DNA of 64,000 nucleotides from Copromyces sp. CBS 386.78 (Eukaryota > Ascomycota > Sordariomycetes > Sordariales > Sordariaceae), in contig MU839106.1 in NCBI GenBank assembly GCA_030685235.1, positions 372,001 to 436,000 on the forward strand. Reading direction: 5' to 3'. The translations under genes and the position numbers were made by a program. The notes beneath the pieces are model-generated. The model was not told the origin of the DNA and did no database searches. It saw only the letters and a program-made list of their open reading frames with translations. How positions within the stretch are numbered: position 1 is the stretch's first letter; every line of letters starts with the position of its first letter. Positions 34,768 to 64,000 of this stretch are shown here, in pieces.

Positions 34768-37700
34768 ATGTCTCAGCCAGCGGCACTCTACCCAACGGAT
34801 GTAGCACTTCCACTTCTATCTTCGCGGGCTCAGAATGTCAAAAACAAGGCCGATGAACTCAGAACAATGTTGCGCCGGCGCAACATTGAGGTTACCGAGG
34901 AGCCCCTAGATGTCTTCATGAAGAAGAATGCATGGCTAAAGCCGAAATGGCTGGACAAGCTCCAACTTGTTAACAATAACATCAAGACATTTTCCAAGGC
35001 TATTGGGACCATCTGCCAAGCCCATGGAATTGCTTCCATAGTAAGCATCTTTTGCTAAACATCATGATTGTGATCAAGAAATGATAATTCAAGTAAAACG
35101 AGCGGATACTGATGGTATTTTGTGATTACACAGATATGGGGTGTTCTGAGATTCATCTTGGATGTAAGCCAATTCCTGCTGTGTCCGAGGACGGCTCACC
35201 ACAACTCCAACGGCGAGACTGATAAACACAGGCGTTCGGCAGATACTTTGGTCTTCTGGATAAAATTGTCGACATCTATGATGAAATGGCTCGATCATTT
35301 CAGATGCTGAAGGACTACGCAGAGCTCTATGCCGAGCATACAACCGTCCTGGATGCTCTGTTGGATATATACTGCTCCTACATTGAATTTTCAATCCATG
35401 CAGTCGAGATATTTGCCCGCCATCCACTCAGTAAGACCTCATGCCTCACGCATTCAATCTGAAGATCTCACTGACAGCAGGGGCACCACCTTGACACAGA
35501 GGTTATCTTCAAGATGATCGTCCGCTTTTCCCCTATCGAACTGACCCTCAAGGACGGAGCAAAGAAGATTTGCAGCGCGACTCAATCATTTAAGGATCGA
35601 AGGAACCTTATAAGGGACAAAATCAGTGCTGACACTTTGAAGAAAGTCGGCACAATCGTAGAGGTAACATCTGTTCAAGGATCACCAAGTCAAGAAAGTT
35701 CCAGGTTGAAAAGGATCTTCTCGGTCCCAAAGGCCCAAAATACGAAGTTTTGTGGGAGAAAAAAAGTGCTCGAACAACTGGGCCGTGACCTGCTCCCGGC
35801 CCAAGACACACCGCAAAAGTCGTGCACCTTACACGGGGCACCTGGTATGGGTAAAACCCAGATAGCAGTTGAGTTCGCTTATCGCTGTTCCTACAAGTTC
35901 CCGGAGCTCAACATTTTCTGGATTCCGGCCGAAGATGAGACTGTTCTCTCCCAGGCTTTTGGCAACATAGCACGGCTTGTTGGGAGCCAGCAGGCAGAAA
36001 CTGATGTTCCAGACCAGGCAAGACTGCTCGAGACGGCGACTGCCTGGCTGCGTGAAAGTAAGTACCTCGTCCTATGGAAAGCCTCAGAAACCCGACATAC
36101 TCACGCAATAATTTTGGGTCACAGATACGTCATGGTTGATGATCTTTGACAATGTCAACGATCCCGAGATCTTCGCCAAGTACCAACCACGCTGCAACCA
36201 TGGATTGATCCTTCTCACCAGTCAGTATCAGGGAATGGTTCACCCCACGACAACAGAAATTCTCGTGAGGTCTTTGACACCTCAAGAAGGTTCAGAGCTT
36301 CTCCTTAAACACATTACCACGGGCAGGCAGGAGAAGCTGCACATGGGAGATCCGAGCTCACTTGCCCGACTGTTCGAGGAAATATCAGAAGAAGTCGACG
36401 GATCGCCACTGCTACTTGTTGGGCTTGCGGGGTCCATTGTTTCCTCGGCAGTCTCAGCGGAAGGAGCCCTCAAGATGCTGCGGCAGTCAGGGAGTTTAGG
36501 CAAGAGCGACCCCTTTACGAACGGCCACTCTGCCTGCGCGTACGACCGACCTTTCGACTCTGCTTGGGATATGGCGTTGAAAGCAATCCCCGAAAAAGGA
36601 CTGGCAATCCTGAGAATCATGAGCATGCTTGCGGCGGATAAAATTCCCGTCGACATGCTCAACCGCGACCTTGAGGGCAAGCTGAGTTTCTTGGGATATG
36701 AAGACCCTGACCGGTATGTACCTTCCAAATCAAGCAGCTCAGTGCTCCTACACCCGGACTAACGCACCTGCCCTACTTCAAGCTTTCGTAGTAGAATTCA
36801 AGCTCATATTGTGGAGCGGTACTTGGTCGAAGCGGAAGACTGGGATCCGAAGTCGCCTTGGTGCTTCTACACCATTCATCGGCAACTGCAAGCGAAAATC
36901 CTGCGAGATCTGCATTTCGTACCAGAACATTACCAGCTCACCTTCGATCGCGCCGTGGCACTAATCGCGCGAGAATTCCCGCCCTTCCCAAGATTCATGA
37001 TGCCAAACTTTTCACAGTGGCCATCATACGAGAAACTGGTTGCCCATGTCCTCAAGGTCCATTCGGTTTATCGTGCTAACGAAAGGAGCCCAGGCCAGGA
37101 TGAAACCCCAACCGTGATTCCTCTTATCCCCAGCATGGCCTTTGCTGAGCTTCTTATCAGCGCTGGGTACTACTTCTATGAAGTAGGTTTGGAACATTCG
37201 TGTCGCGCGGTCTTGGAGACCGCCGAGAAGATTTTCCACGAATTTCGCATTACCTCTACGGCCGAAGCCACCACGCAAATAGAAAGAGGACCATCGGTCT
37301 ACGCCAATTCTCTGAAGCTCGAGACAAATGCCATTACAGTATTCTGGGGCATCATTGAGCAGGCGCAGGGTTTGACAGGTGCACGCAAAGCCATGGCAAA
37401 GGCGAAGCAAGTGGTCGCTTTGCGCGAGAAGCATGCAATCCTGCCTGGCCTTTCCTCAGAAGATAGGTTAGAAAGTCAAGTCCTGCTATCCAACGCTTAC
37501 AACGACATTGGCGCTCAAATGCTTCACATGCACCAGTACGCGGGCGCAATGGACTACCTCGACAAATCACTCAATCTCAAGAGGGAGCTGGAAGCACAAG
37601 GCCATGACATACCACCGTTCGAGTTTGCAGAATCCACCAACAATTTGGCCTTCGCTGCACTTGGCCAGAATCTTATAGACGCTGCTTTGCTTCACAGCCA

Positions 37701-38388
37701 AAAGGCCGTGGACTTTATCGACAAGGACGACAGCCACGACAGCGACGCAACCCGCTTCTACTTCTGTCACGGGGTTACACTTTTGCTAAGTGGCCAACCC
37801 GAAGAGGCTCTGAAGGTGATGATAGACGTCCACAGAAAGCGTAAAGACACCTTTGGTGGATCGGGACGTCAAACAAGGGATACCAGTTACGCCATCAGCT
37901 TCATTTACTTCTCTCAGGGCCGCTTCAAGGAAGCCACGTAAGTTTCCTGCCATTCCTGGTCCTCATTTCCCTCTCTCGTCAAACCAAAGCTCCTGACTAA
38001 CCCAACTCGTCCCAGAAACACCATCAGAGGCTGCTTCAACGAGCAAGCCAAGGGCATCTGGCCCGCCGAATGCCTGACCCGCGCCAAGTATCTGCAATCC
38101 CAGATCTTAATGGCGCTCGGAGACATTGACGAAGGCAAAAGGAAATACGACGAGGCAGTCCAGGAACTGGACAGGTATCTGTCTGACATTTTTCCCAAAG
38201 CCCATGCTCAAAAGGCGGAAGGTAGCACGCCTGCATGCAGTGGCTATGCAGAGCTCATGGCTGCTGATGAGGCACTACGGTTTGACTATGTCGTTCCTTT
38301 CTTCGCGGGGAGGTTTGCTAGTACGGTGATAGGTGTTAGAATTCGAAGTGGTGTTGGGTGTTTTCCGCCGTTGGAGGACCTGGAGTGA
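34768..38388 (+). CDS. Fungal NLR: helical N-terminal domain, NB-ARC, TPR repeats
   Basis: STAND-type NOD-like receptor, 1055 aa. Seven exons: 34768-35040, 35134-35163, 35232-35430, 35500-36057, 36125-36713, 36792-37937 and 38016-38388; all phases join. The acceptor of exon 6 could instead be 3 nt later. The N-terminal helical domain (residues 1 to about 170) includes IWGVLRFILD, matching the fungal STAND-associated DUF7708/Goodbye-like helical type (tentative). The NB-ARC domain has a P-loop (GAPGMGKTQIA, residues 280-290), a Walker B (WLMIFDNVND, about 357-366), an RNBS-B-like LILLTSQ and a GLPL-like GSPLLLVGLAG. The C-terminal 450 residues form degenerate tetratricopeptide-like helical pairs, including AMDYLDKSLNLKRELE and ALLHSQKAVDFI. 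The ligand is unknown. Such proteins act in heterorecognition and cell death. The start was chosen for its Kozak context (ACCAAAATG). I see no amyloid motif at its N-terminus. Confidence 0.85.
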
Positions 38389-47900: not shown

Positions 47901-50359
47901 CGTTGGTGTCGCTCACCCCAAGCCTCTTCCTCCTTGATTTACGCCTCGTGGCCCCTCTCGAGTCCCACTGATCGCTCAAGAGGCGGCTCCAGTGATTCCA
48001 AACAAAAACTCCGGTCTCAGGCAGCCTGTCGGTGTTGGATGCCCTGGTTTGATCCCCTCCGGCACCCTCCCCGGCTGTACTGGTCCCGGCCGTCGTCTCT
48101 CGGGTTAACTTGTGACAGCTGATGGTGAATACCACATGCACATACCATGTTATTCTCGATCATGTCTCCGAATTATACGATGCTGATTGAACGGTTGGCT
48201 CTCGGAGAAGGGGTAGTCGAACGGGTAGCGGAATGGCGCTGGGTCTGGGAGCTCTGCCTTCCGACGTGGACGTCCAGGACTGCTCGGCCTTTTTGACGCC
48301 CGGTGTTTCTCACACAACCCAAGAACCCTCGTCTTCTTATCCTCCTCATCCCCAAAGAACTCTGGGCAGTTCATATACTCCTTTCCTTAAAGTTGATGTT
48401 GACCACGGTGTCGAGATGCGTACAATGGTACGCTGAGCACGGAAATCACTCGGTTCTCCGCTGATCCCAGTACACATTTGCATTCGGGGTGGCGTTCGAA
48501 TTTCGTTGAGTGCGAGGCTTCCGGTCTACGATGCCTTGGGAACGTTGGTGATACGGGAAGAGCTCGGAGAGGTAAGTGTATGCGAGAGAACCCCAGCCTC
48601 ATGGTTGCAAAGACGGAGGTATCGGTCGTTGAAGGCTGTTACTTTCCAGGCTGATCGCAAGGGCGCTGAAGTTCTTCTGGAAAGTGGTGGTAGGTAGGGA
48701 GTCGGGTTCCATTGCATAGGATCTCTATAGCTGGTGGTGACGAGGTGCGGACTGGAGAGAAGGAGCTGAGCAACCTCAAACGGCCCAAGCTGCACATATA
48801 TGCAATCTACCATCTCGACGTCGACGATCTCTCCGCGTGCTCACTCAAACCTTCACCCATTCCAGAATCCCAATCCGAGCGGCGTGCCGAATCTGATGTA
48901 ATGGTTGATGTAGGTCCACAGCCAGCTCCTGGGGGTCGAACATAGAAGGTGTAATCGTCATCGTACGCCCAGCCTTCAGAACAGCGCTGAGAAGCTCAGG
49001 CAGGCATAACATTCCTGATTTTGCCGCTGAGAGGAATGGTGGAAGAATGTCGAGTCGGTGACCGGGACCGTTCTACGGGCAACATGAAGTGCTTCGATAT
49101 CGGCATCGCCCTGAGATCAATATTCGCACAGGCTCGAAGTCCACGCTTCAAAGTTGTGGCGGCCAGTTAGCAGCGCCAGACTAGACAGAATGTGATGGTG
49201 TACCTTATGTTCTGTATGTTCTGCTGGGGGGCAGCCATTGTCGCTTCGCCGCTTGGCTGATGCTTGCTTGCTTTGAGGGAGTGGTATAGTTACTCGTCTG
49301 GGCTAGAAACGCCTTCAGACCCCATCCGCAGACCGGAAAGGGTCTGGGGACGATTCTAGTCCTAACGAGTAGTAATGAGGCTGAGTCTTGGCGAGAAAAA
49401 ATGAGGAGTCAAGAGTGGTCTGTGCGCGGTTAGTCATCCCTAACAATTATCGCTGAAAGATGACGTCCTTCTGAACAAGCGCCATCCAATCGATTTGTGT
49501 GTTCAAGTCTCAGTTGAGGACTCACAAAGAGACATCACGTTGTGGAAGATGGTCTCGACCTGACATTTCCACGTGTTTGGGTGAGACCAGCTGGCTTCTG
49601 TCATGTAATCCCCAACTTTAGCGACAACTAATCAATTCTCACCTCGTTATCAGCTAGAAGCTTTCATGGGTGGCCTGGCTTCTTTTTCGAAATGCGATCA
49701 ACAATGGCCTTCCTGAGGCTCCCAGTGCCTGCGCTGGCTGCCACGGCACTGTGTGGAAACCGCCATCTCAACATCAGTTGCCCTATCTGTCGTCATCCTT
49801 GGAGATCTCTGTGCGGCGATACTCGGTTGAGATGGTTCAGATCGACCTTTGGCACCAGACGGCACCCTCTGAATGGATTCCCTTGTCAGCGGTAGATCAG
49901 GGGTTCGCGTATGCGGCTCGCGTGGTTGGTCAGGGCCCGATCACGACGACCTGGAGAAAAGCAAAGTGAATCGGATATAAACCTGGACGGCTCCCCAGGC
50001 TGTGCTCGGCTCGAGTCCACGGCCAATCTGAGCAGGAGATTGTTCGACATTTGGACATGTTGGACATGGTGATGATGTCTTTGTCCAAAACACATGAACG
50101 CCTCTCCTCTCCTCTCCCACCTCCCACCGCCTCGACCGCCTCACCTGCCAGGAGAGTAAAAGTGTATAAAAGTCACTTCCCTTTCGGTGTGTCCCTTTGC
50201 CTGCTACAACGGCAGCAGTCACCGTATATTGTTTCTTTACTTTGGGCTGGCAAAGCGGATAAATTGGGACCCGGGCATTTGCTTTGCTCGTTGCCTTTGG
50301 TTGCTTTTGGTTGTCTTTTCGGTGGATGCCCTAAATCCTACGAGCCCAGGTTAGCGTTT
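47901..50359. other. Gene-poor stretch with scattered coding-like scraps
   Basis: No intact gene. Scraps such as ARLPVYDALGTLVIREELGE (plus strand, about 48509-48568) look protein-like but have no start or domain context. The composition is not RIP-like. Confidence 0.35.
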
Positions 50360-50841
50360 CGGTGAAAGAGACTCCCTCGGCGGGCAGTGCCACTTTCATA
50401 TGCCTAACAGCCCGTATATTGCCTAACAGCCCGTATAGGGTAACCAGGGTAGGGATCCCTACACGGGCAGTGCTAACTTATACTAATCCCTAACCCTGTT
50501 AAATGATGGTTGTTTGGCGGCTGCAACGTCGAACTTGGCGATTTGCAGCCATCGTCAGATTACGCGATTTCTTTACAACAACCATTAACCACCACACAAC
50601 TCTACCAAAACAACTCGTATCAACTCGATTCCAACGTCAGTACGCTCGCCGCATTGCGCTGAATTACCTGCTTACTTTCTTTTTTACTACAGCATATCCG
50701 CCATCGACATTACTCACAACATTTAACAGGGTTAGGGATTAGTATGGCATTGCCCGTGTAGGGATCCCTATCCTGGTTACCCTATACGGGCTGTTAGGCA
50801 TATGAAAGTGGCACTGCCCGCCGAGGGAGTCTCCGGTGAAA
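50360..50841. mobile_element. 466-bp hAT-like MITE with 8-bp target duplication
   Basis: The element spans 50368-50833. It is flanked by perfect 8-bp duplications CGGTGAAA at 50360-50367 and 50834-50841. The ends are long inverted repeats of about 113 bp starting GAGACTCCCTCGGCGGGCAG. They are almost identical, except that the left arm carries an extra 19-bp tandem copy (50418-50436) and a few substitutions. An 8-bp duplication with long inverted ends fits hAT. The 79-codon frame in the centre does not resemble a transposase, so the element is non-autonomous. It shows no RIP-type decay and so looks young. Confidence 0.93.
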
Positions 50842-52060
50842 AACCGCGATTATGTCGGATAGAGGTGCTGAGGAGTGAGGACTGAGGTGACGGCCACATT
50901 GAGAGCGGGCTGCTTGCCTGCTTCCGACCTTACTACTAGGTTGCGTCCTGCTCCTTCCCCCAGGCCCCAGTCAGGGTCTCGTTGACCGTTGCCCAGCTTC
51001 TGCCAGTTTCAGTGTCGAATGGGCAAGTGCCCACCCACAGAGGCCCGCCCTGCTAGTACTCATACCACAAGTGTTCGGTGACAAGAGGCAGGCACACTGG
51101 CGACCCAGGCGTTAGGTTAGGTTGTGCCAGGCGGGATGGCGGAAACGAGTGGGCTATCCAGATGTGACGGAAGGCGGACAAGACACAAGCCAGAAAAAGA
51201 AATGCTCTGATGTTCTCGTCTCCCGGAGGCACTTCCGACGGAGCAACCACCCCGTTGTAGGCCTAGATTGTCGGTTGCAACTTTTTCCAGGACAACAGTA
51301 GGTAGTCTGCTACTGTGAGATAAAGTAAGACCAGGAGCATCAAGAGAACAAGCTTAACGAGGCTGCGAGGGTATAGAGTAAACGGGGTACACGGGGATGG
51401 GCGCTAATTTTCAACCTTGCCGTCGTCTTGAAGTCACCAGACCTTCGCTAAAGTTTCAATTGTCCGGCTCGAGCAGTGATCTTCACTCGCCACAATTGTT
51501 CCCAAAGAGTCTTCTTTCGGGGAACCTTCCTTTGCACCTTCCTTTGTTCCAATTCCCACACTAGCCCCATCTTCAACCTCCCTCGTCACTGCATATTCTG
51601 TGTCTAGGGGCCTCGGCAAACTCGCTGGGCACTACCACTCACTCCTACCGCATTCCTACAAAAAGTAAAGACAGGATTCCCAAGGGAAAGGAAAGACCAA
51701 CAGGGGACCCATCTCAAACAAGGCTCTCACAGAGAAACAAGCAGGCTGTGAGCTCAGACGTTCTCATATACCGGCCTTCCCGCCCCTTCCCGTCCCATTC
51801 TTATAAGCTCGAAAAAGCACAGACAGTCACGGCAGCCACACCCGGACCCGTGTTTCTGGACCAGCACAGATCAACCTAGGCCCGAGCCGTAATTTCCACC
51901 GAGAAACAACTGAACAACGTCCTCCCATGGTGGCTCGAATAGCATCTACTACCTACCCTATCAACATCTCCGTTTCATCAGCGCAGCTACTACTTGCTCC
52001 TACCTCCACTCTTCCATTCCTTGAATCCCAGTGGATCATCAGGGTCAAACCACAGCAGCT
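50842..52060. other. Promoter region upstream of the ankyrin gene
   Basis: No gene supported. The ankyrin reading frame continues upstream of 52061 in another phase, but that translation is non-coding in character. The region from about 51640 is a C/A-rich leader. Confidence 0.4.
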
Positions 52061-53627
52061 ATGTTCGGTATGGCTAGGTCGAGGTATGCATCAGCAACCT
52101 ACACCAATAACGGGGATGGAACGCAAATCATGCATGATGGTTATGGTTGTCAGAACATCACCGAATCTGGTATCATCAACAACTTCCAATACATCAACAA
52201 CGGACCTATCTTCGGTAGGTCGCCTCCGCCTTTCCAACCTGTCTTTGGTGCGCTTCTCGACTAATTTCCAACACTTCCGCTTGACAGTGAACCTGCCTCC
52301 GAACTTTCCTTTTGCCGACCAGGGCGTTGGTCCGAACTTCGACACGAGTCTGATTACCGAACCACGCCAGCACCGCACTACGGGACAAATGAGAGGCGTA
52401 AGGCGGGCCAGTAGCATTAAAACGCCCCGATTACTTCGCCGCTTCCGACCTTACATCGATCGTTCTCCCACACGCCTCAGCCCCAATCATGCCGACGAGC
52501 ACGCACACGCGACCTTGTCAGGCCCCCGATCACAGCCCCAACGACGCCCGTACTACGAGCCTCTCATACAAACCGCCGCCTTTCTGATATACTGGCTTCC
52601 CGGCCCCAGCTGGCAAGATCCACAAGGCCGAAACTCCGTCCATGATGCCGTCCAAAGGCAGTACCACTTTGCCCTCCCGTTCTTGCTCGAGTTTCTCGAG
52701 GACCCGCTCCTTGCCCTGATCTTAGGCTCCATCGACTTACCCGCCCTGCTAAACACGCGCGATTTGATCGAACAACGAACACCCGCTCACTACGCCGCCC
52801 TCCTAGGCGATCGGCACTCTCTTAAACTACTAGTGGACAAGGGGGCCGATGTGGAAGTGGCTGACAAGCACGGGAACACGGTCCTGCACATTGCTGCGCA
52901 AAAGGGGTGGGCGGACGTGGTCAAGCTTCTGCTGGAGAACGGGGCAAAGCTCGATGAACGAGACAGAGAGGGCTACACCCCCTTGCACCTCGCTGCCGCG
53001 CACGGGCGTCAGGAGGCCGTGGAGCTTCTGCTGGACGCAGGAGCGAAGAGGGACGTCAAGGAGGGCTTCCTCGAAAAGACGGCTCTGCATTCTGCTGTTG
53101 AGAAAAAGCACTTGAGCACCGTCAGGGCACTCGTACGCGGCTTGGGGTATGAGGCAGCTGCATGGGATAGGGATAGGGATAGGGCTTTGGTGGACGATAA
53201 GGACTGTCAGAAACGTACGGCTCTCCATCTTGCTTGCCGGATTCAAGGCGGGCCGGCTGACCTCAGGATGGCGAGCGACATGGTGCACATCTTGATCGAA
53301 GCTGGTGCGAAGTTGGATGTCAAGGATGCGGAGGGTAGGACGGCTTTGATGTACGCTGCGCAGCGGGCAAATTTGGCGGCGGTGAAGTGCTTGGTGAGGA
53401 AGGGCGCTGATGTTGGCGTGAAAGATGGCCGTCATGAAGGGCCAGGGGGTAGAGACCGTACGGCAAGGGACTATGCGACAGATTTCGAACCGCGGGGCAG
53501 GGACTGGGAGGAGGTGGTAAGGTTTCTGTCCCGTGGTTCTGGTGGTTCCCATGGTCTTGGTGGCGGTTGGATGGATAGCGAAGGTCTCTTGGGTGGTCTT
53601 TGCACCGCTGCGCAAACGGATGGATGA
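52061..53627 (+). CDS. Ankyrin-repeat protein with N-terminal PP-like amyloid motif
   Basis: Two exons: 52061-52214 and 52288-53627 (497 aa). The intron has a GTAGGT donor and TTGACAG acceptor. Exon 1 encodes the first 51 residues, almost only the motif: residues 18-37 (GDGTQIMHDGYGCQNITESG) fit G-x-G-x-Q-x4-G-x-G-x-Q-N-x4-G. An Asn-rich NNFQYINNGPIFG follows. A 150-residue basic linker leads to six ankyrin repeats (about residues 207-450), for example HGNTVLHIAAQKGWADVVKL and GYTPLHLAAAHGRQEAVELL. No NB-ARC or NACHT domain is seen. In known fungal amyloid signalling, the N-terminal motif of a receptor templates folding of the same motif on an executor. Here the ankyrin array would be the sensor (inference). 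A reading frame without the intron starts at 51927 but loses the motif; splicing is better supported. Confidence 0.75.
52112..52171 (+). other. PP-like amyloid motif, ankyrin protein
   Basis: Codons 18-37. It matches the motifs at 55091-55153 (minus) and 59367-59429 (plus) at the two G-x-G-x-Q cores and the QN following the second. The motif is carried on a separate exon. Confidence 0.65.
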
Positions 53628-53731
53628 GATCATCATCATATCGTTGCAGGCTGGAGTGAGTTCTTTGGTTCCCTTTTCTTTTGTTTGTTGGTTTTTCCGC
53701 GCTGGTCTTTATGTCGTTCTTCACGTTTACA

Positions 53732-54192
53732 TTTCCTTTGAGCTTAACTTCCCGCACCGTCCCTTTTGATTTGATGTACCCTTTTTAACTTAATATACCG
53801 CTATGACAGCTGATATAGTTTTCAATCGTCTTTATATAAAAATTTTGGTATTTTTAATATTTTAAGCATGGCGGTACGCCAAGTCAACCGCGACAGCAAC
53901 CGCGACAGCAATCGACTTAGTATACCGCAGTCGCTATTACAGTCGCTATCGCAATCGCTATCGCGGTCGCTATCGCTAGCGATGGCAGTATAGGATGTTA
54001 TGCTGAAATATAGCCTTGACTGTGTGAGAAAATATTACATGCGAAATTACGGATTGATTTTATTATATAAAACGGGGTACTTTACATATTAGCTGTTATT
54101 CAGCTGTCGGGTGGAGTAAGTGCGGTATATCAAGTCAAAAAAAGGTACGCGAGGACATTAGGGACGGTGCGGGAAGTTAAGCTCTTTCCTTT
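53732..54192. mobile_element. 445-bp hAT-like MITE with 8-bp target duplication
   Basis: The element spans 53740-54184 with flanking 8-bp duplications TTTCCTTT (53732-53739 and 54185-54192). The terminal inverted repeats begin GAGCTTAACTTCCCGCACCG and are identical for the first 25 bases. A second, weaker inverted pair follows (TTAACTTAATATACCGC on the left, TTGACTTGATATACCGC on the right). The centre holds a cluster of GCGATAGC/GCGACAGC-type repeats in both orientations (about 53895-53990), resembling the subterminal transposase-binding repeats of hAT elements. It has no coding capacity. It begins 112 bp after the ankyrin stop codon and may supply part of that gene's 3' UTR. Confidence 0.92.
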
Positions 54193-55033
54193 TACCCTTA
54201 CCTCCCTCTGAATCACTCAAGAGAGATTTACGTTTACTGTCAGAAGGCTTCTTGCATTGCATTTACAGAAATCAACACACTCTATTAACCATGGCTCGGA
54301 TTGAGCTCCCAAGTGACTTGCAGCCTCCCTCGTTCTGCGTTCTATCCACTCCATGTTTGACACCTTTCTTGCGAAACTGCTTTAATCCCATGTTCATGAT
54401 GCCAAGCTGATGAGTGATGCCCTGAGATGCCCAGCTGGATATCCCGTCCTCTCCGCGAGTAAAGGCCAGATCTCCCGCATTGTCATACGCTTAAAGTTTG
54501 CTCACGGGTTCCACGACTGTCGTCTTCACCTCCGTGGCCAGGATCGCCGCCGCACGCCTAGATCCCACCCAACCGCAAGATCTCCGGCACGGGCGCCGTG
54601 TGTAAGCTTGGTTCTTCCCATGGTCCCACAAGCACTTAACCTCACATTTTATGCAAGGAATGTGTATATCCGATCCGGGGACTCTACCCATTTATCACTC
54701 CCCATTGGCCTACAAGCATCATCGGTTCATGCATGGGCGGCAGCGTCTCCGAAACACGTGGATCCTACCCGCCCGGTGATCCCAGAAAATGTGATGGAGG
54801 CTGGAAAAGGCGACAACGAAAAAAAGGGTTGATTGGAGTTGTCTAACGGAAAGAGGAGAAACGGAAACCAGGGCGGCCTAAATACCCTGGAAGGGAGTGC
54901 CGGTGAATGGGCAAGGCCCAGTGAAGGGCAGCCAGCCCAGGGCACGGACTTCCAACAAAATGGGTAACCAATGGACTTAAACCGATGCCCCATCCTAGTC
55001 TGGGATGGTGGTCCAGTGGACAAAGGGCAGTTG
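54193..55033. other. Convergent spacer between ankyrin and SesA genes
   Basis: One 140-codon plus-strand frame (54410-54832) and overlapping minus frames lack recognisable content. I do not call them. Confidence 0.4.
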
Positions 55034-55813
55034 TCATCGGGCGGTCGTAGTGACGTGAAAAGGACCAGAAACTGGCCCGGAAAAGAAGACACCATGACCA
55101 GTGTAATTGTTCTGGACGCCGGTACCAGCATGTATACACTGCATTCCACTCCCACGGTTTTCCTGACTGTAATAATGCACCGAGCTCGGCGGGGGCGATG
55201 GAGTGGTCCATGTCGGGATCTCTGGTGATGATGATGTTGAGGACGACTCCCGAGAGGGAGGTCGATCATCCCAGCTGTACCAAGTGCTTTGCCTCCGAGA
55301 CACGGGCCGTGAGAACAAGTCCATGGCCAGAGCGGCATGTGCTGCCGCTCTAATCTGCTTTTGAATATCCTGATCAAAGCTTTCTAACGTACGGCTGTCG
55401 GCCATGAGTTGGATATCTTCCAGTATTCCCTTCATGAGCGGTTCCACCTTTCGGCTTTTGCCCATATGGAAAGTCATCATGGCAGCCGTGGTGAACCGCT
55501 TCCGCGCTGATGGCCTGGAGGCGTCTGACGGTATGAGTGTTCGGAATATCTTTTCCAATGCAGCGGCCCTCTGTTCACATGACATCAGAACTCCCGTCAT
55601 TGCCGTGCAAGACCCCTTTACATCATCCTCGCTGAGCTTCAAGCCACTTCGAACCTGCTTGAGCGTCTTCGCTACTAGTGGCAGCCGAACACGGGCTTCC
55701 CTCATCGCTTCAGGCAGCCCGTAGACATCATTGCAGGCGTTGGCAATCTTTACGGCTGCGTCGATAATGGATATGATGCTCGAGACGAGACTGATGATGT
55801 CCACGCCAGACAT
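55034..55813 (-). CDS. SesA-domain protein with C-terminal PP-like amyloid motif
   Basis: 259 aa from the ATG at 55813; the upstream open frame to 56128 looks non-coding. Residues 1 to about 150 match the SesA domain, a HeLo-superfamily helical domain otherwise found on fungal STAND receptors and cell-death effectors. They run from MSGVDIISLVSSIISIIDAA through YGLPEAMREARVRLPLVAKT and EKIFRTL to KVEPLMKGILEDIQLMA. A Ser/Pro-rich linker (about 165-215) leads to the motif at residues 221-241 (GSGMQCIHAGTGVQNNYTGH plus G). The protein ends 18 residues later. The order (helical domain, linker, C-terminal motif) is that of HET-S/HELLP-type executors. Membrane-directed cell death is inferred from the family, not shown. 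The gene lies tail-to-tail with the ankyrin gene. Confidence 0.8.
   Translation of the reverse strand: MSGVDIISLVSSIISIIDAAVKIANACNDVYGLPEAMREARVRLPLVAKTLKQVRSGLKLSEDDVKGSCTAMTGVLMSCEQRAAALEKIFRTLIPSDASRPSARKRFTTAAMMTFHMGKSRKVEPLMKGILEDIQLMADSRTLESFDQDIQKQIRAAAHAALAMDLFSRPVSRRQSTWYSWDDRPPSRESSSTSSSPEIPTWTTPSPPPSSVHYYSQENRGSGMQCIHAGTGVQNNYTGHGVFFSGPVSGPFHVTTTAR
55091..55153 (-). other. PP-like amyloid motif, SesA protein
   Basis: Codons 221-241, near the C-terminus. It fits G-x-G-x-Q-x4-G-x-G-x-Q-N-x4-G and shares TGHG and FSG with the copy at 59367. Confidence 0.7.
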
Positions 55814-58709
55814 TTTCGTACAGGTGTCGTTAAGAAATTCGAGAGCGTTGAGCAGATAAGGAGTGTTGATGAGTGGCGTTGACAGGGGCAGTTGGCAGAT
55901 AACAGTACCAAACTGCTGCCTAGAGTGATTCCGGTTATGGTTGGAAATTGGAGATATGAAGCTGAAGTTGAGGAAGGGTGGCGGTCGGCAATGAAAACGT
56001 GTCGTTGGGAGAAGGTTTCGGGCGGGAGGAAGAAGAAAGAACAGGTGTGGGTGAGTGGTGAGGTGGCAGTCTTTCCTAGGCTGTGTGTCCTGAAGTGGTA
56101 CAAAAGCAGTTGCATTCAAATTGAGCACGCTAGCCGAATGTAGATCTCCCGCACTTCCACCTTACTTGAGCTAGCCGGGGTGCGCAGCGGCCCAGAGGTC
56201 TACGTGTCAGATGTGACCGTGCAGAATTGATTGATTGAAGAGTATATGTAACTAACTCGCCCCTCGCCTTTTCGTTGGCTCTCCGGAGAAAGGATGCAGT
56301 GGTTACAGGCCGTAAGGCCTTCTCACTGCCGTCTTTTAACATGACTGTCTCGATGAGCCTCCATCCCAGGGCTGTGACGAGTCGAAGCTCTCCAATTGTT
56401 CGTCTTTAAAAGGCATCCTTGCCTGCTGGGGAAGCAACTTGTATCGTCGTGAGTTATCGTGAGAGAAAATGCAGCAGCCCATCACCTGTAGCAGCCCGAT
56501 CCCCCCTCAAAAATGAACGAGACAAGACATCGGAACCATGCAAAACGCTTGAAAGCTCACTCGTCAGGACTAGAAACAATTTTTTTGGACCCGACGGCTT
56601 GTTCCACGGTGTTATGAGTGCCCAAATTAATGTCGCACGAAGCAAGCAAGCCCGAAAGGGCATGACGTGAGGAAATCTCGAGCACAGCCCCATCCAATTC
56701 CAATCAACACCCGCCAGAGCCTGCAACGACGGGCTGTAGAGGCAAGATTTCTGCTTGGGTAAGGTAGGGATGCTTGTAGTTTCTGCATGTCATGACAGCA
56801 TGCATGGGTGGTTGTACTTCGCCGGTCGAAATTTACATGAACTTGTCCAATTATGGGCTTCATGTAATATGCAGACATTAGAAAGACCACTGTCTCGTGG
56901 GGAGCCGTGATAGGCCTATCTGTGACCCCTTTAGAACATCAAGTGAGCTTGAAAATTTGCTGAAGATGTTTTGGCCGCTGTGCATACCTCACTAAGCCGG
57001 ATTTTCTGTGGGACTAGCATTATGGACAAAACTGGCATATATTGCGCGGTGATATCTGCTCGAAAAGCGCGAGTTTTTGCTGTGCGCCGTGATTCAGTCC
57101 TCCATGCTAATCACAGCCTGTTTGGACGGCTTATAGAGCTACCTTACCTAGACCATTCCGCTGTCTGGGCTAAGCCAGTCTACCCAATTGAACTGAAACC
57201 ATAGTATTCTATTCACATTGAGGGTTGCCAATGGCAGTGAGTGGATGATGCGTTCCCAAAGAGGAAACGCGGCCTTGCTCTATAAGTAGATTATTTCGAC
57301 GTGGCAGTCGCTCGGCATGTCAGGTTTATCAGATGTCCGGACAGCAGCACTAACAATATACCCCGCTCTATTAGTAGGCCAGTTGTTAGTGGTAACCAGG
57401 GCACTTCTCACCTCGAGCGCAATAACTGGTTGGAGACTGGATAGACTGGGATGTCGTCATAACCCCTCTAATTGCAACTGCCTGCCGTGAACAACTCCGC
57501 AATGAACCAATCAAAGCATCGGTTGATATCCTCACAGCAGTTTTAACCCTAAACACTTCCTTTCTTGGGTAGCTGATCCCGAGCCCTTCTGTACTTCTTT
57601 ACTTCGCAAGCCAAATTCAACACCAGTTTTCCGCCCAGTTCGGTTTTCCTCTGTGTCACCGGGATTTTGGATATGCGACACGCAACCTCAACTGGTGGTC
57701 GGAGAGAGAGAGGTTGTGGACTGCGCGCAGTCTAGCAACTTGGATGTATAGCCGGATTGATTATACCGGAAATCGATTTCTAGGTATGGATTGGACCAGA
57801 GAAGAGGGGATGCGGATACTTGGTGAGCGAGATACAGACCCTCATCTCCACGAGTAGTGTTGGCTAGCGCCTGCCACCTACATTTTCGACTTCCGACATG
57901 GAGCAGCCAGGTCCAGCCACATCAGAACTGACAACCAGTCGCAACCGGTATAATGTTCCTTCCCACTGCAAGTCAACCCCCATTTCTTTCCATGTGTGTC
58001 ACCCAGTTTCAATGGCCATGATGCCCAACTAACAATCCGAGCAATGATGTTGTAGCCTCCTCAGCTCGAACCAGTGAGGGAAGTGCACATATTTGACCTT
58101 GGTGTCTGCCCTGCCTATGAAGACGAGGCTTTGACGCACCCCGCCACCCGGCGTTGCATTATGTGTTTCCTGCCCTCCGTGATTTCTTGCTTCACGGCTT
58201 CAACCGTCAACTTGGGATGAAACAATGCTGACTTGCATCTATAGACAATGAATGGAGGCTCTACAGCCGTCCGTTTTGCGAATGGCTTCCAACGACTGGA
58301 GCCCAACCACGGAAGACCGGATCCGACCTACTAGTGCATGTGAGTTATTGGCCAGTAGGTCTGGGACAAGTGAAGTTCATCGCTGTGTTCAAGATGGTGT
58401 TGAGAGCCTGTGCTTCATTCCATAAATAGTTATTTTATAGGTCAGCCCACGTATCGTATCTGGGCTCGGGCAACATCAACATCTTGACTTATTACTACCT
58501 CTACACTTCTGGCCACCTCACTGCAGCCACAGGACGCTTTTATCGCCTTTTATCATCCTTCTCCAGTCGACTATCAGCAATCTCACATTTGCCAGGCTTT
58601 TCTTCTCATTCGAACCACTCCCGCTTGGATGCTTACGAGCTTTCGACTTGGCTAGGTCTCTATCAGGAGGGCTGGCTATCCCAAGCATCAAGCAACATAG
58701 GTTCAGAAC
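55814..58709. other. 2.9-kb spacer within the amyloid-motif cluster, no supportable gene
   Basis: Contains the SesA promoter and the leader of the 58710 gene. Frames of 60-130 codons occur, but none shows motifs, a signal peptide or an amyloid motif. The segment at 57900-58700 is rich in CCA/TCA but not coding in character. A missing third-party sensor gene is not visible here. Confidence 0.45.
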
Positions 58710-59606
58710 ATGCCCAAGGGCAAAATCCGAAAGTTGATCAAGGATCGACTCCGTCACAAATCACCAGACAACAGAGGCCTGGAAGTTCCGGTCGAGCGAT
58801 CATCACAACACAGTTCATTGGACATAACCGGAACTCGTCCTTCAGCCGATCGATCCCGTCAACATTCAACAGAGATGAGTAGATCCACTGCTACAGCCAC
58901 AGTCACAGCCACGGACAGAGACTGCCTTCAAGCTCTGAATGGTTGGACCTCAAGGTTCAATGAACTTAGCCGGCATGTTGAGCAGGGTTCCCCTACAGCC
59001 ATGGCCCTCGATTCCGCCCGAGCAGTCGTCCGAGAGTTGAGCTACTCGGACCTTCTCGATGAGGGCAATAATGAGGTCTTTGAGGCGGTCGTGAACACCA
59101 GGCGGGACTTCGACGAGAAGTATGAAGAGACAATTGAAAACATCGGGCGTGGAAACTCCAGAGAAGAAAGGCCAGAGGCAGCAAACAAGGTCATCATCAA
59201 CACGCAGGACATTGTGAACATGGTTTTGGGACTTGTACGGCAATTGCCGCCCCGCCTTCAACCGGAGCAGAACAAGGTCAAAGATCTCAAGGAGAAGGCA
59301 AAGAAACTCGACAAAGCGGTCAGCGATTCCTACGCAGCGGGACATCTCTACAACATGAGAAACAGCGGGTCGGGACAGCAAAATTTCCTCTCGGGTTCTG
59401 GGACGCAGAATAACAGTACTGGCCATGGCTCGATCTTCAGTGGTCAACAGTCCAGAGGAACCTACAACATTGGACCTTCGGGACTCCCATCACCACCAGC
59501 GGCGTCACCTGAAGAGTCGAGGGAGTCGAGGGAGTCGAGGGAGTCGAGGGAGTCGAGGGAGTCGAGGGAGTCGAGGAAGTCGAGGAAGTCAAGCAACTCA
59601 GGTTGA
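58710..59606 (+). CDS. Helical protein with C-terminal PP-like amyloid motif and Arg-Glu-Ser tail
   Basis: 298 aa, single exon. The N-terminal about 75 residues are basic and Ser-rich (MPKGKIRKLIKDRLRHKSPD). Residues about 70-215 look like a helical bundle of unknown type: DCLQALNGWTSRFNELSRHV, RRDFDEKYEETIENIG, NTQDIVNMVLGLVRQLPP and KVKDLKEKAKKLDKAVSDSY. Residues 220-240 are the motif (GSGQQNFLSGSGTQNNSTGH plus G), followed by SIFSGQQ and TYNIG. After a proline-rich spacer the tail is a 9-bp tandem repeat encoding Arg-Glu-Ser. The helical part is not recognisably HeLo, SesA or a lipase, so it may be a new executor or adaptor type. The gene is in the same orientation as the ankyrin gene. Confidence 0.72.
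   Translation: MPKGKIRKLIKDRLRHKSPDNRGLEVPVERSSQHSSLDITGTRPSADRSRQHSTEMSRSTATATVTATDRDCLQALNGWTSRFNELSRHVEQGSPTAMALDSARAVVRELSYSDLLDEGNNEVFEAVVNTRRDFDEKYEETIENIGRGNSREERPEAANKVIINTQDIVNMVLGLVRQLPPRLQPEQNKVKDLKEKAKKLDKAVSDSYAAGHLYNMRNSGSGQQNFLSGSGTQNNSTGHGSIFSGQQSRGTYNIGPSGLPSPPAASPEESRESRESRESRESRESRESRKSRKSSNSG
59367..59429 (+). other. PP-like amyloid motif, 58710 gene
   Basis: Codons 220-240: two G-S-G-x-Q cores ten residues apart followed by QNNSTGHG. It is the most regular of the three copies. Confidence 0.7.
59514..59585 (+). repeat. 9-bp tandem repeat in coding sequence
   Basis: GAGTCGAGG is repeated about seven to eight times, the last copies changing GAG to AAG. It encodes Arg-Glu-Ser then Arg-Lys-Ser. 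Copy number is likely variable between strains. Antisense and out-of-frame Ser-Leu-Asp or Gly-Ser-Arg frames are by-products. Confidence 0.9.
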
Positions 59607-61040
59607 CGACAACCAGTTGCGCACTCTACCACGGGTGAGGCGTAGACATGGACCACCGTGGAGGCACTGAGTTGCACATCGATCTCAACAACTACATAAC
59701 TCACCCATGTTTCTTGCCTTTCTGTTGTTTCTCATGATCACTTGCAGCACGCGCGAATCATGATAGCCCTCAGCTTCCGTTCTACGTTTCTCATTCTTGT
59801 GGTAGTCTAGGTAGATAACTTATTGACATATGGCTCTTTATTCGACTGTTCCTCTGCTACGATGTGTCCACCTGGTCAACCATTTCCCCAGCCTATCCAG
59901 ATATAAATACGCGCTATCATGCGGTGTCTTCCATTCTCCCTTCGACCCAACCAGACGTGTTCTGAAAGAGATATATAAGGTAGTCTTAGAGGCAGCAGAA
60001 TGAAGCAATTTCTATGTCTGTTTCTGTCGCAAATCCCACAAGAGGGATGCTCGTCCAGATACCGCTTCTTCAACAGCGGTTAGCGTGGAGGAGGATCAAC
60101 GAGCACTAACAGGAGTACATGTAGGACTGGAGGGCTGATCGCGATAATGGTCTATTCACTTGAAGTGTACTATTCAAACCTGGATGGCCGAATAGGATAG
60201 CAGTATTCTTCGTTGAATATGACTGCATTCCGGCCTAAGTTCCCAGAAGTCCTATGTGATGAAGGAGTGTCTTGCTGCCTACTGGCGTCTTGTGCTATGG
60301 CGCTTTCGATGCCAATAGGACCATGGTGCCTGAGGTCGCGCTGTGTCTTTTGCCTAGAGGTACTATAAGTTGGTAGTTCAAATCTCTGTACTGGAATTAC
60401 AGACAGACCCGTACCAATGTGTACAATCTAATACTAGTTTATTTTTTAGTTCGAGACCTCGAGTTAACTTCCTTAGGCGTTTTGACATCTTGATAATTCG
60501 TTTCGTTCAATAATCAAGGTGTATCTTACCTTGCATATACTATTTTGGAGAGTTTGATATGCGATATTGATTTTTATTAGAACCCTTTTGAACCGTACAG
60601 AACCATTTATGTCTATACTTATAGAGCAACTCTACTCGCACGTTGATAAAACTCTATTCGCACGTTGAAGAAAACGTTATTTCAATATCTTTTTTAAAGT
60701 ACTAAAGAGTATAATAAGAAGGTAAAAAGTACATAAGATTTTTTCTTATTTTTTTCTCTACCTAACATTGCCCTTTTGAAGAACGTACCGTAGCAGAAAA
60801 ATCGGGCGGTCATCTAGGCTAGATGACCCTATTCTAGGCTAGAGTCTCAGTCAGTTGGGATTAGGTGTTTAGCCTAGACTCAAAATCTAGCCTAGACGCC
60901 CAATGGAGGCTTGTGATTGGTTAGATCTATTTTGGTGATGAGATGATGGTTCCTTCTTTCCCAAAGTTCATAGTTCCTTCTTTTTATCTCCTCCCACCCT
61001 ATATTAAAGGAAAGAACGAAGCCCGCTTTCAATTAATTGG
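59607..61040. other. Gene-free flank with short repeats
   Basis: No gene supported. Near 60630-60670 a 20-bp unit (AACTCTATTCGCACGTTGA type) is present twice. Around 60808-60900 there is a cluster of CTAGGCTAGA-type palindromes, including a perfect 21-bp one at 60808-60828. AT content rises toward 61 kb. Confidence 0.4.
60808..60828. repeat. 21-bp palindrome in a CTAGGCTAGA cluster
   Basis: GGTCATCTAG and CTAGATGACC flank a single G. Related half-sites TCTAGGCTAGAGTC, TTAGCCTAGACTC and ATCTAGCCTAGACG follow within 75 bp. It may be a transposon end or a foldable element; nothing else identifies it. Confidence 0.55.
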
Positions 61041-61045
61041 GCTAG

Positions 61046-61119
61046 TGGCTCAATGGTTCTTGTCGTCGTTGTCTTCCTTGTGATCGCCAGTTCGATTCTA
61101 ACTGGTGATAGCTTTTTTT
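61046..61119 (+). repeat. tRNA-derived Pol III unit (SINE-like or tRNA pseudogene)
   Basis: TGGCTCAATGG (61046-61056) is a perfect box A, AGTTCGATTCT (61089-61099) a near-perfect box B at tRNA-like spacing, and a T7 run at 61113-61119 could terminate Pol III. The flanking 7-mers that should form the acceptor stem do not pair, and the T-stem has G-to-A-type changes, so it is not a functional tRNA. Confidence 0.55.
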
Positions 61120-61140
61120 CCGTTGCGCGAAAAGTTTCGC

Positions 61141-61196
61141 GCGCGGAAGTGTAAATGCCCTCATCCGGGCGCGGAAGTGCAAATGCCCTCATCCGG
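61141..61196 (+). repeat. 28-bp tandem duplication
   Basis: Two adjacent 28-bp copies of GCGCGGAAGTG(T/C)AAATGCCC plus TCATCCGG differ at one base. They lie directly after the SINE-like unit. A 15-bp direct repeat (GTATACGTTTGGAAG) also occurs nearby at about 61398-61428. Confidence 0.85.
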
Positions 61197-61499
61197 ATTT
61201 TGAAGTCAAAATCCTAAACGGCTAGAGGTACCAAAAGGACTACTAAGTGTTATGGTTCTTGCACGGTTGGCACAGGTGCAAGGCAAAATGTGTATTGAAA
61301 AGGTTCGATAAGGAGAAGAAGAATCTAGATATATAGAAGGAGCGGTGGATAGCGCTCTTATACCCAAGGGGTCTATGTTGGGAGATAGGGTATACGTTGT
61401 ATACGTTTGGAAGGTATACGTTTGGAAGGCTTCTAGACTAGGACTTTTAGGCGGCAGCCCTATAATATTACCCCCTACTAGACTATAGCCCTACCTCTT

Positions 61500-64000
61500 G
61501 CCCCACCTACTACCTTACTTTAATATTGTAAACGTAATAATTACGTCTCCCTCGATCTTTCCTTCTTTTTTTCTCCTTTAATAATAATAATAATATTAGT
61601 AATTAATTCGCTATCGCCGTTCTTATTCGCTCGTTATTCGTTATTATCGTTGCGCTCCCGTATTTTATAAATCGTCCTTCCTTTACTTATTTTTCGTAAT
61701 TATAAAATTACGAAGTATATTTTGTTTTAATTTAAATTAGTATTAACCTTTCCCTTACGATTAAAAATTATTATAATATTTTCACCCTTGCGCCCGCCCC
61801 CGACTTTTATTAGTTATAATTATAGTTACCCGCCCGGCTTAAAAAATATTATTTTGTCTACCGTCTGTATCCGCGCTTTAGAAAATAAGGCGCGCGAGAG
61901 TTATATTATTATTAACGTTATTTAAGCTTCGATTAGCGCTGTTTACGTTATATTAGCTACTATTTAGGCCCGTTGCGAAAAGGAGGCCGCTAAGTACAAT
62001 ATTTATAATATTACCTTCGTTACTAAAGCTTCGGAAATTATTTATTCCTTTAATATAGTACGTTTATTAATTATTATTATTCTACCCTTAATCCTTTTAA
62101 TTAACCCGTTTTTAAGGTCTTACTACCGTTTTTTTTATAGAGGAGGAGCCTTTCTACTATCGTTATACTTTATAGGACTTAATTTATATACGCCTTAAGC
62201 CCGGCGTTATATATATTTATTATTCGAAAGTACGCTATATTTGTACTTCTACGCCTAAATATTTTATTAGGGCTATTAATATTTAAGGAATATTACCCGC
62301 TTATAAAAAGGAAGGTACCGACGCTATTTCTAATATAGGTATTAAATATTATAAATTTTCTTTTCGGGCTTATTAAGTTTAGAAGGTTAGAATGGCTATT
62401 TATTAATTATTAGAAAATATTATAGTATTTCGCGCCGCTAACCTTATTAACGTTTTTTAATAAGTATAGTCTTCTTTTTAGTATATGGTATTATTAACTT
62501 AACGATATTTAAGGAAATTATTAATACCTTCGTCGATAGTAAGGTTATAAGTACTATTATTATTTCTTTCGAAGTATTAGAAAATCGTTTAAATATTTTC
62601 GAATCCTATTTTTACTATTTAACTAGTTTTCTATTTTCGTTAGGAAGTATAGAAATTATAGAGGAGGCTAAGGAGGAAGATAGAAGAAGAGGGGAAGAAG
62701 AGGATAAGGAAATAGGAGAGGGGGATATTGAAGAGAGTAGGAAAGAAGGTAATATTATTATTAGCGTTTAAATAATTTATATTCGTATTATTTTAATTTA
62801 TATTTATATTTTTAGGCCTAAAACTATTGGTTAGGAGGGAGTAGGGGTTTTTTTAGTAATTTCGGCCGTAATTTCTTTTTATAAATAAAAATCCCGCCTT
62901 CGGACGTATATTTCTTTCTATTTAGCCGTTTCTTATATATAATATTATTTTCGGGGTTTATTATTAAATTTAATAGGTTTATATTTAATTTTAAATAAGT
63001 TTAGTACTTGGGTTTCTTAGAATTCTTTTAAGGGCTCTTAAATAAATTTCGTATAATTAATTTACTTTATTAAAATTTATTTAACGAATCCCCTTCCTAT
63101 AGCGGCGTTCTTTGTATATAAGATTTTATTAACTTCGTATTCCTTTTCGCTATTTATTATTATAGTAGGGGGTTAGGGGTCGGTTTTTTTTTAAGTAAAG
63201 GAGGGGGATTCTTCGATTTTTTTTACTTAATTTACGTAGAAGTTAATTAGCCCTTTTTTAAGTACGTCCAAAGTTATAATGTATAGGAAGGGAATAGTAG
63301 TAATTGTATATTTAGTGTATAATTAATTTAATTTCTTCTTCAATTTAATAATAGGAAAATTCTTTAAATTTAATTAAACTTTATCTTTTAATTAGAATTT
63401 ATTAATTAAACGTCTTTTCTTATTCGTTTACTACTTTATTTCTTACGCTACTACTTTTATAGAAGTTTAATATAAATTTATAATTTATTAAAGCTTTTAA
63501 ACGAATTCGGCCGTCCGTTATTTAGGTAAATTTAATTTTACCGGGGTTATTAAACGAATTATTAGGACGACGGAATCCGGGTAATAGTTATAGATAACGA
63601 AGAAAAGGGATACCTTTATAAAGGAATTAATATAGTTATTAATAGCTATTTATATTATAAGAAGCTAGTAATCCTAATCGTTTTATTATTAATTAATATA
63701 AGCCTTTAAAAAGGCTAAAATTTCTTAGTTTATTTATTCGGGGCGTCTATTTATTTATAAGTAGTAAATAATATTTAATTTACGATTAATATTTAGTAAG
63801 AAATATAGATAAGTTTAGAATTCGTTAATCCAATTAGTACTTCGGTCGTTAATAATTAATTTTAATTATTAATAATATTATACGAAATATTAAAGGAAAC
63901 GCTCCGTATATTATTTAGCGGTTATATTTTCTATAGGTTCGAGGATAACCTCTTTATTTAATTTATTTTTAATAATTTAGAGGTTGCAGAAGCTATAAAT
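61500..64000 (-). mobile_element. RIP-destroyed Ty3/gypsy chromovirus, 3' part, running off the window
   Basis: The stretch is extremely AT-rich and TpA-rich. On the minus strand from 64000 leftwards, integrase blocks are legible through stops: DRSTNWINEF (about 63850-63820), a LNINRKLNIIYYL block in place of LG-x-x-x-x-LSTAYHPQ, then NRRPE-stop-INQ in place of the family's TERMNQ, YNYYPD in place of YGYHP, AEFV, DKV-stop-LNLKN in place of DKVWL, and KKLN. At about 63160-63000 a chromodomain-like EYEVNKIL...GRGFVK follows, placing it among chromoviruses. Left of about 62900 I cannot assign sequence. A plus-strand stretch near 61970-62160 also reads as old coding sequence (RCEKEAAKYNIYNITFVTKA), perhaps from a second element. 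LTR boundaries are not resolved. Confidence 0.75.

Follow-up and report, generated by a model that had tools for sequence, protein, structure and literature searches.

Can a fungal amyloid signal be received by a protein that has ankyrin repeats and no NOD? This question is raised by three neighbouring genes in the window, a stretch of 64,000 nucleotides (C28:372001-436000) in a genome of 49.8 Mb and 273 contigs. The first gene lies on the plus strand and encodes an ankyrin-repeat protein of 497 residues (ANK), the would-be receptor. It consists of exon 1 (52061..52214, residues 1-51 plus one base of codon 52), an intron of 73 nt (52215..52287, GT-AG, phase 1) and exon 2 (52288..53627), which carries a linker and the ankyrin repeats up to the stop. 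The second gene (55034..55813, minus strand, 259 residues) encodes a SesA protein and is convergent with the ANK gene. The third gene (58710..59606, plus strand, 298 residues) encodes an orphan protein. On balance, the three genes appear to form an amyloid-signalling module of the sigma type, with an ankyrin-repeat protein that has no NOD in the receptor place.

The preliminary description of this DNA had reported one motif in the three neighbours, placed at the N-terminus of the would-be receptor and at the C-terminus of the two would-be effectors. Both observations were reproduced in the open genes. The three proteins have a single register in common, GxGxQ-x4-GxGxQN. The copy in ANK, GDGTQIMHDGYGCQNITESG, spans residues 18-37 at the N-terminus; the motif region lies at 52100..52213 (plus strand), with the core GxGxQx4GxGxQN at 52112-52156. 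The copy in SesA, GSGMQCIHAGTGVQNNYTGHG, starts at residue 221 and the copy in the third protein, GSGQQNFLSGSGTQNNSTGHG, at residue 220. These two C-terminal motifs are located at 55055..55165 (minus strand) and 59355..59474 (plus strand), respectively. When the six frames were searched with the pattern GxGxQ-x4-GxGxQN-x3to5-G, it occurred three times in the window, each time in the trio, and not once in 200 random first-order windows with the dinucleotide make-up of the window; the pattern was derived from the finding itself and was not a blind choice.

The kinship of the three copies was compared by shuffling one partner of each pair. None of 5000 shuffles aligned as well as the SesA and third-protein motifs, which are strongly related. 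ANK and SesA are clearly related (1/5000), while ANK and the third protein are weakly related (242/5000). With shifted segment borders, the corresponding counts among 5000 shuffles each were 0, 4 and 176. A small leave-one-out sigma profile recovered SesA at E 1.5e-7 and the third family at 5.3e-4. ANK was found at E 0.16 by the same procedure, below an unrelated frame of the window at E 0.06. As far as the sequences go, the kinship of the SesA and third-protein motifs is firm. Kinship of the ANK motif rests on its fixed register, its likeness to the SesA copy and its position in the protein. The ANK copy is the most diverged of the three, which counts against the best explanation. In the MAFFT alignment it has one extra unit of 10 residues relative to SesA. 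Sub-motifs of the GxGxQ and GTQN types are repeated, and they are common to the N-terminus of the receptor and the C-termini of the effectors within the cluster. The extensions of SesA and the third protein are very alike, while ANK does not clearly resemble them; the grouping of motifs by cluster presented in the available text of PMC3321046 is not clearly seen for ANK.

The preliminary description had named the motif PP, had taken HELLP as the parallel and had proposed to score the three segments with a PP-motif profile. This profile, PF17046, appears under a misnomer as 'PP (misnamed SesB)' in the accessible part of PMC12261475. Neither the three proteins nor the genome, searched up to E 1, gave a match, so that the PP naming is refuted and an assignment to the PP/HELLP system is ruled out. 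The sigma profile, PF17106 (NACHT_sigma, cut-off 27.6 bits), scores two of the three proteins. SesA reaches 24.7 bits as a whole protein, 29.3 bits when the motif is scored alone and 28.1 bits in the genome search. The corresponding values for the third protein, 21.9, 25.8 and 25.5 bits, are below the cut-off, and with a limit of E 10 all three members of its family are hit, the best at 0.0002. The ANK motif scored alone gave no match to PF17106, nor did any other Pfam family match it. Genome-wide at E up to 1, at least two PF17106 matches exist, SesA and the third protein; genome match counts in this study are lower bounds, and the sigma search missed the ANK copy and the C116 copies described below. 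On the evidence of these profiles, the motif is best assigned to sigma and is not the PP of HELLP.

The receptor was described beforehand as free of NACHT and NB-ARC domains, and this holds. Pfam finds ankyrin families and nothing else on ANK; the scan gave no NACHT, NB-ARC or NOD, and no Walker A pattern or P-loop was matched. Without a NOD the protein has no known ATP-driven oligomerization, and this also counts against the best explanation. ANK was considered as a recent copy of the repeat region of an NLR of the same genome and this was rejected, the best other match being 42% identical and of a generic ankyrin kind. If the intron is retained, an ankyrin frame without sigma is open from an ATG at 51927 (51927-53627), which may represent an isoform and is a trap for annotation.

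The existence of this frame gives some ground for the view that the repeats lack a join to exon 1 and that there is no sigma-ankyrin protein at all, since the repeats could be translated from ATG 51927 with the intron kept. However, the intron is canonical, and an annotated gene model of Pseudoneurospora amorphoporcata, the 'ankyrin' protein P0003 from NCBI, has the same join between exon 1 and the repeats. The corresponding exon at the second locus, C116, has a GT in the same phase (by eye). An unjoined exon 1 is therefore highly improbable.

The identity of the SesA protein, also proposed beforehand, was confirmed by PF17107. The match (55403..55786, minus strand) scores 98.7 bits against a cut-off of 26.3 and covers profile positions 1-122 of 122. 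The protein has a hydrophobic N-terminal stretch at residues 3-21. SesA is described as remotely related to the HeLo and HeLo-like domains in the part of PMC5485727 consulted, and as an N-terminal effector domain of NLRs in the corresponding parts of PMC5485727 and PMC12881547.

The third partner had been called unrecognised, and it remains so by the searches made here. Outside the motif it has no match over cut-off in Pfam, NCBIfam or PADLOC, only weak ones, and its sequence matches none in the PDB up to E 10. Its sub-cut-off Pfam matches besides NACHT_sigma are weaker ones such as Sipho_Gp157 (E 0.022). The orphan domain comprises residues 71-217 (58920..59360, plus strand). Described beforehand as helical, it is at most possibly so, with crude propensities of 1.05 for helix and 0.96 for strand. 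Behind the motif, a tandem array of GAGTCGAGG (59514..59590, plus strand) codes for a tail of E-S-R; its copy number differs in the homologue P0001. The following readings of the protein were considered and found no support. As a diverged SesA/HeLo domain the protein obtains an hhalign probability of 0.5%, in a weak test with two 3-member alignments, and has no Pfam match. As a SesB-type lipase it would be expected among the alpha/beta hydrolases, and no such family occurs in the Pfam scans. A membrane-active N-terminal helix is not indicated, since the first 18 residues have a low moment of 0.23. The most hydrophobic 19-residue stretch reaches 0.35 in the third protein vs 0.62 in SesA. The protein could be an effector, an adaptor or a brake.

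These features of the third protein could also be read differently. The motif might serve an assembly that has nothing to do with cell death, such as a scaffold that forms reversibly. In the third protein no toxic domain is matched and no stretch is strongly hydrophobic, and the profile comparison mentioned above separates its domain from SesA, all of which would suit such an assembly. It is countered by the SesA partner itself, with its remote kinship to HeLo and its published place as an effector domain of NLRs (PMC5485727 and PMC12881547, in the parts available). We regard an assembly without a role in death as distinctly improbable.

The SesA profile has at least four matches in the genome: in the window and on contigs C116, C196 and C63. 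The C63 match has five internal stops. In the C196 copy an ATG is absent from the usual place and a C-terminal motif was not seen; a NACHT/NB-ARC match is located about 12 kb from this copy on the same contig. The C116 paralogue (83403-84113, plus strand; L010:3-713) has a sigma-like tail. A scan of the fetched stretches with the sigma profile found an exon near it at 86636-86752 on the minus strand (L010:3352-3236). With E 0.0052 it is the best match outside the training set; it was found after the fact. When parts of the training set were left out, the E-value ranged from 0.0011 to 0.12, and it was 0.049 without the C116 SesA. The exon has independent marks: a MARSR start as in ANK, a GT donor in the same phase 1 (by eye) and convergent placement. 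The distance from the exon start to the SesA stop is 2.6 kb at C116 vs 3.0 kb in the window. The alignment of the whole exon with that of ANK scores 58, with a shuffle mean of 20.5 and 0/10000 shuffles as good. Without the MARSR start the motifs are only moderately alike (score 35, 58/5000 as good).

No ankyrin exon was detectable behind the C116 sigma exon. The best match to ANK exon 2 scores 48 and is equalled by 14/150 random sequences, so that a remnant at this place is not significant. A duplication of the whole locus at the DNA level was rejected as well, because the window and C116 have four short matches only, one of them out of order. The latter (54789-54965) is 88% identical over 180 columns to C116:81999-82171 and is probably a dispersed repeat. 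Two inverted-repeat, MITE-like elements were also noted in the window, at 50368-50833 before the ANK gene and at 53740-54184 between ANK and SesA. Their outer arms are perfect over 51 nt and 81% identical over 47 nt, respectively. Rfam gave no match over window positions 48000-62000.

Homologues were sought with the third protein and with ANK residues 1-225 in a database of 5.8 billion proteins, among candidates sharing short exact words with the query. For the third protein, the 7995 candidates sharing most words were scored and two homologues were found; a repeat with residues 62-262 (639 candidates) returned the same two. P0001 from P. amorphoporcata (Sordariaceae) is 96% identical over 95% of the protein. 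P0002, from a source labelled lgn and a contig of 4213 bases, is 71% identical over 75%; within it 106/147 residues of the domain and 32/40 residues of the motif are identical. For ANK residues 1-225, P0003 of P. amorphoporcata is 97% identical over 99% and starts at residue 4. P0004 (lgn) is 79% identical over 62% and starts after the linker, and is thus silent on exon 1. Its repeats are 46 residues short, as would be expected of a variable sensor and also of ordinary drift. The closest named proteins are those of P. amorphoporcata, at 96-97% identity, which places the window in this species or one closely related to it; no paper on Pseudoneurospora genomes was found in the open-licence PMC literature. 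The ANK and third proteins are each conserved in two relatives, as single proteins, the longest contigs of the P0001 and P0003 sources having 36081 and 29616 bases, respectively.

This conservation bears on whether the cluster is the remains of a HET-eN-type NLR cluster, whose receptor lost its NOD and whose genes linger without function. HET-eN carries ankyrin repeats according to the portion of PMC3321046 at hand. In addition, an ankyrin exon was not detectable at C116, and the SesA copy on C196 is without the usual ATG and motif. However, none of the three frames in the window is interrupted. ANK and the third protein are open in the relatives at 71-79% identity over the aligned parts, and the motif of the third protein is as well conserved as its domain, by the counts given above. 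Decay of this kind is quite unlikely.

A further explanation is that a sigma-bearing NLR exists elsewhere and that ANK modulates it as a decoy or scaffold. Such an NLR might be unassembled or too diverged, or have its motif in a distant exon. In the published passages available, PMC3321046 among them, sigma effectors come together with an NLR gene, apart from a single exception stated in PMC3321046: a Nectria protein extended by sigma at its C-terminus, which does not lie beside a STAND gene. The reach of the genome scans is also limited, and the peptide searches missed the C116 motifs. Searches with NOD profiles at E up to 0.001 gave 39 matches for NPHP3_N, 7 for NB-ARC and 20 for NACHT, which were merged by place into 45. 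None of them is on C28 or C116. Stretches of about 2.5 kb upstream of each of the 45 were scanned, with one of 0.9 kb at a contig end; the scan would miss a motif in a distant exon or a strongly diverged one. None of the 45 contained a sigma pattern, and the full profile gave no score under E 1, the lowest being 1.2 (L039). The leave-out profiles gave 0.17 for L050 and 0.61 for L039, and these scores were taken as noise.

The window itself contains an NLR-like gene at 34768-38387. It has its own N-terminal region and TPR over cut-off, and its P-loop region matches AAA_16 and NB-ARC below cut-off; it escaped the NOD searches of the genome. This gene was rejected as the receptor, since no sigma motif was seen in its first exons. 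Both the empty upstream stretches and this gene argue against a hidden sigma-NLR, and we consider ANK as its modulator unlikely.

The favoured reading, a sigma module with ANK in the receptor place, draws on the common register, the sigma profile matches, the SesA domain with its hydrophobic stretch, the geometry known from HET-eN/SesA/SesB, the conservation in relatives, the C116 pair and the 45 upstream stretches free of sigma. The undetected ankyrin exon at C116 and the moderate likeness of the two ANK-type motifs speak against it. It allows a mechanism to be proposed. In the published model, as given in the part of PMC5485727 consulted, ligand-induced oligomerization of an NLR gathers the motifs into a cluster, from which the amyloid seed is nucleated. 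For the present cluster we infer seeding, templating, toxicity leading to cell death and a role of the third protein as follows. When the ankyrin repeats bind a ligand or cluster, several of the N-terminal sigma segments would meet and fold into a cross-beta seed. This seed would next convert the sigma segment at the C-terminus of SesA, whose HeLo-related domain would be freed and could attack the plasma membrane. The third protein, with the motif closest to that of SesA, would be recruited into this assembly too, either as another effector or as a regulator, and would hold the position of SesB in Nectria. Clustering by the ankyrin repeats is the least supported step, because the NOD that drives oligomerization in NLRs is absent.

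Taken further, this mechanism would amount to NLR-free amyloid signalling in fungi: the ligand would cluster a plain ankyrin protein, which would nucleate sigma and fire SesA together with a new class of sigma-bearing partner. We hold this wider proposal tentatively, as slightly more doubtful than credible. If true, the system would correspond in fungi to RHIM sensors that are not NLRs, such as ZBP1. ZBP1 and TRIF act in sensing. The RHIM of animals occurs on such non-NLR proteins, as stated in the part of PMC9444067 available. A motif-bearing receptor without a NOD would uncouple the motif from the NOD, and ligand-driven nucleation would become testable in a small protein.

It is useful to compare the cluster with the known systems, in the portions of their published descriptions that were available. 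The two-gene death clusters of fungi that pair a gasdermin with a Q2L protease (PMC10197012) are alike in that an ankyrin, TPR or WD-repeat sensor need not be an NLR. However, they signal by proteolysis and share no amyloid motif. The GDQN pair of Fusarium oxysporum Fo5176 (PMC12261475) also has a SesA partner, KAI8417720, and its spacing NxxxGxQ-x4-GxGxQN fits by eye. However, the Y, D, V, S, last Q and N positions are unmet by the ANK copy (by eye), and the receptor KAI8417719 is a probable NLR, unlike ANK. In the HELLP/SBP/PNT1 system (PMC5485727, PMC12881547) the motif is likewise N-terminal on the receptor and C-terminal on two effectors. The difference is in the motif, which is PP, and in the receptor, PNT1, which is built as PP-NB-ARC-TPR; in addition, the trio has no HeLo-like or lipase match besides SesA. 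In place of HELLP, it is the sigma cluster that fits the present genes.

HET-eN/SesA/SesB of Nectria haematococca (PMC3321046) is the closest known system, because the motif is sigma. Sigma was defined from these three proteins, and an overlooked 5' intron of het-eN and ankyrin repeats were noted. Three neighbours are again found, with sigma N-terminal on the receptor and C-terminal on two partners, and the receptor has a 5' intron in its gene and ankyrin repeats in the protein. HET-eN differs by its NACHT domain, while none was found on ANK, and the alpha/beta hydrolase SesB is replaced here by the orphan protein. In the accessible open-licence PMC literature no fungal amyloid-motif receptor without a NOD was found. 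The kind of cluster is thus known, and what is new is the receptor without a NOD and the orphan partner in the place of SesB. Such a receptor would extend fungal amyloid signalling beyond NLRs, and the orphan protein may be a new effector or regulator under the control of sigma. If experiments confirm it, the trio would be an uncommon form of a cell-death circuit already known in fungi.
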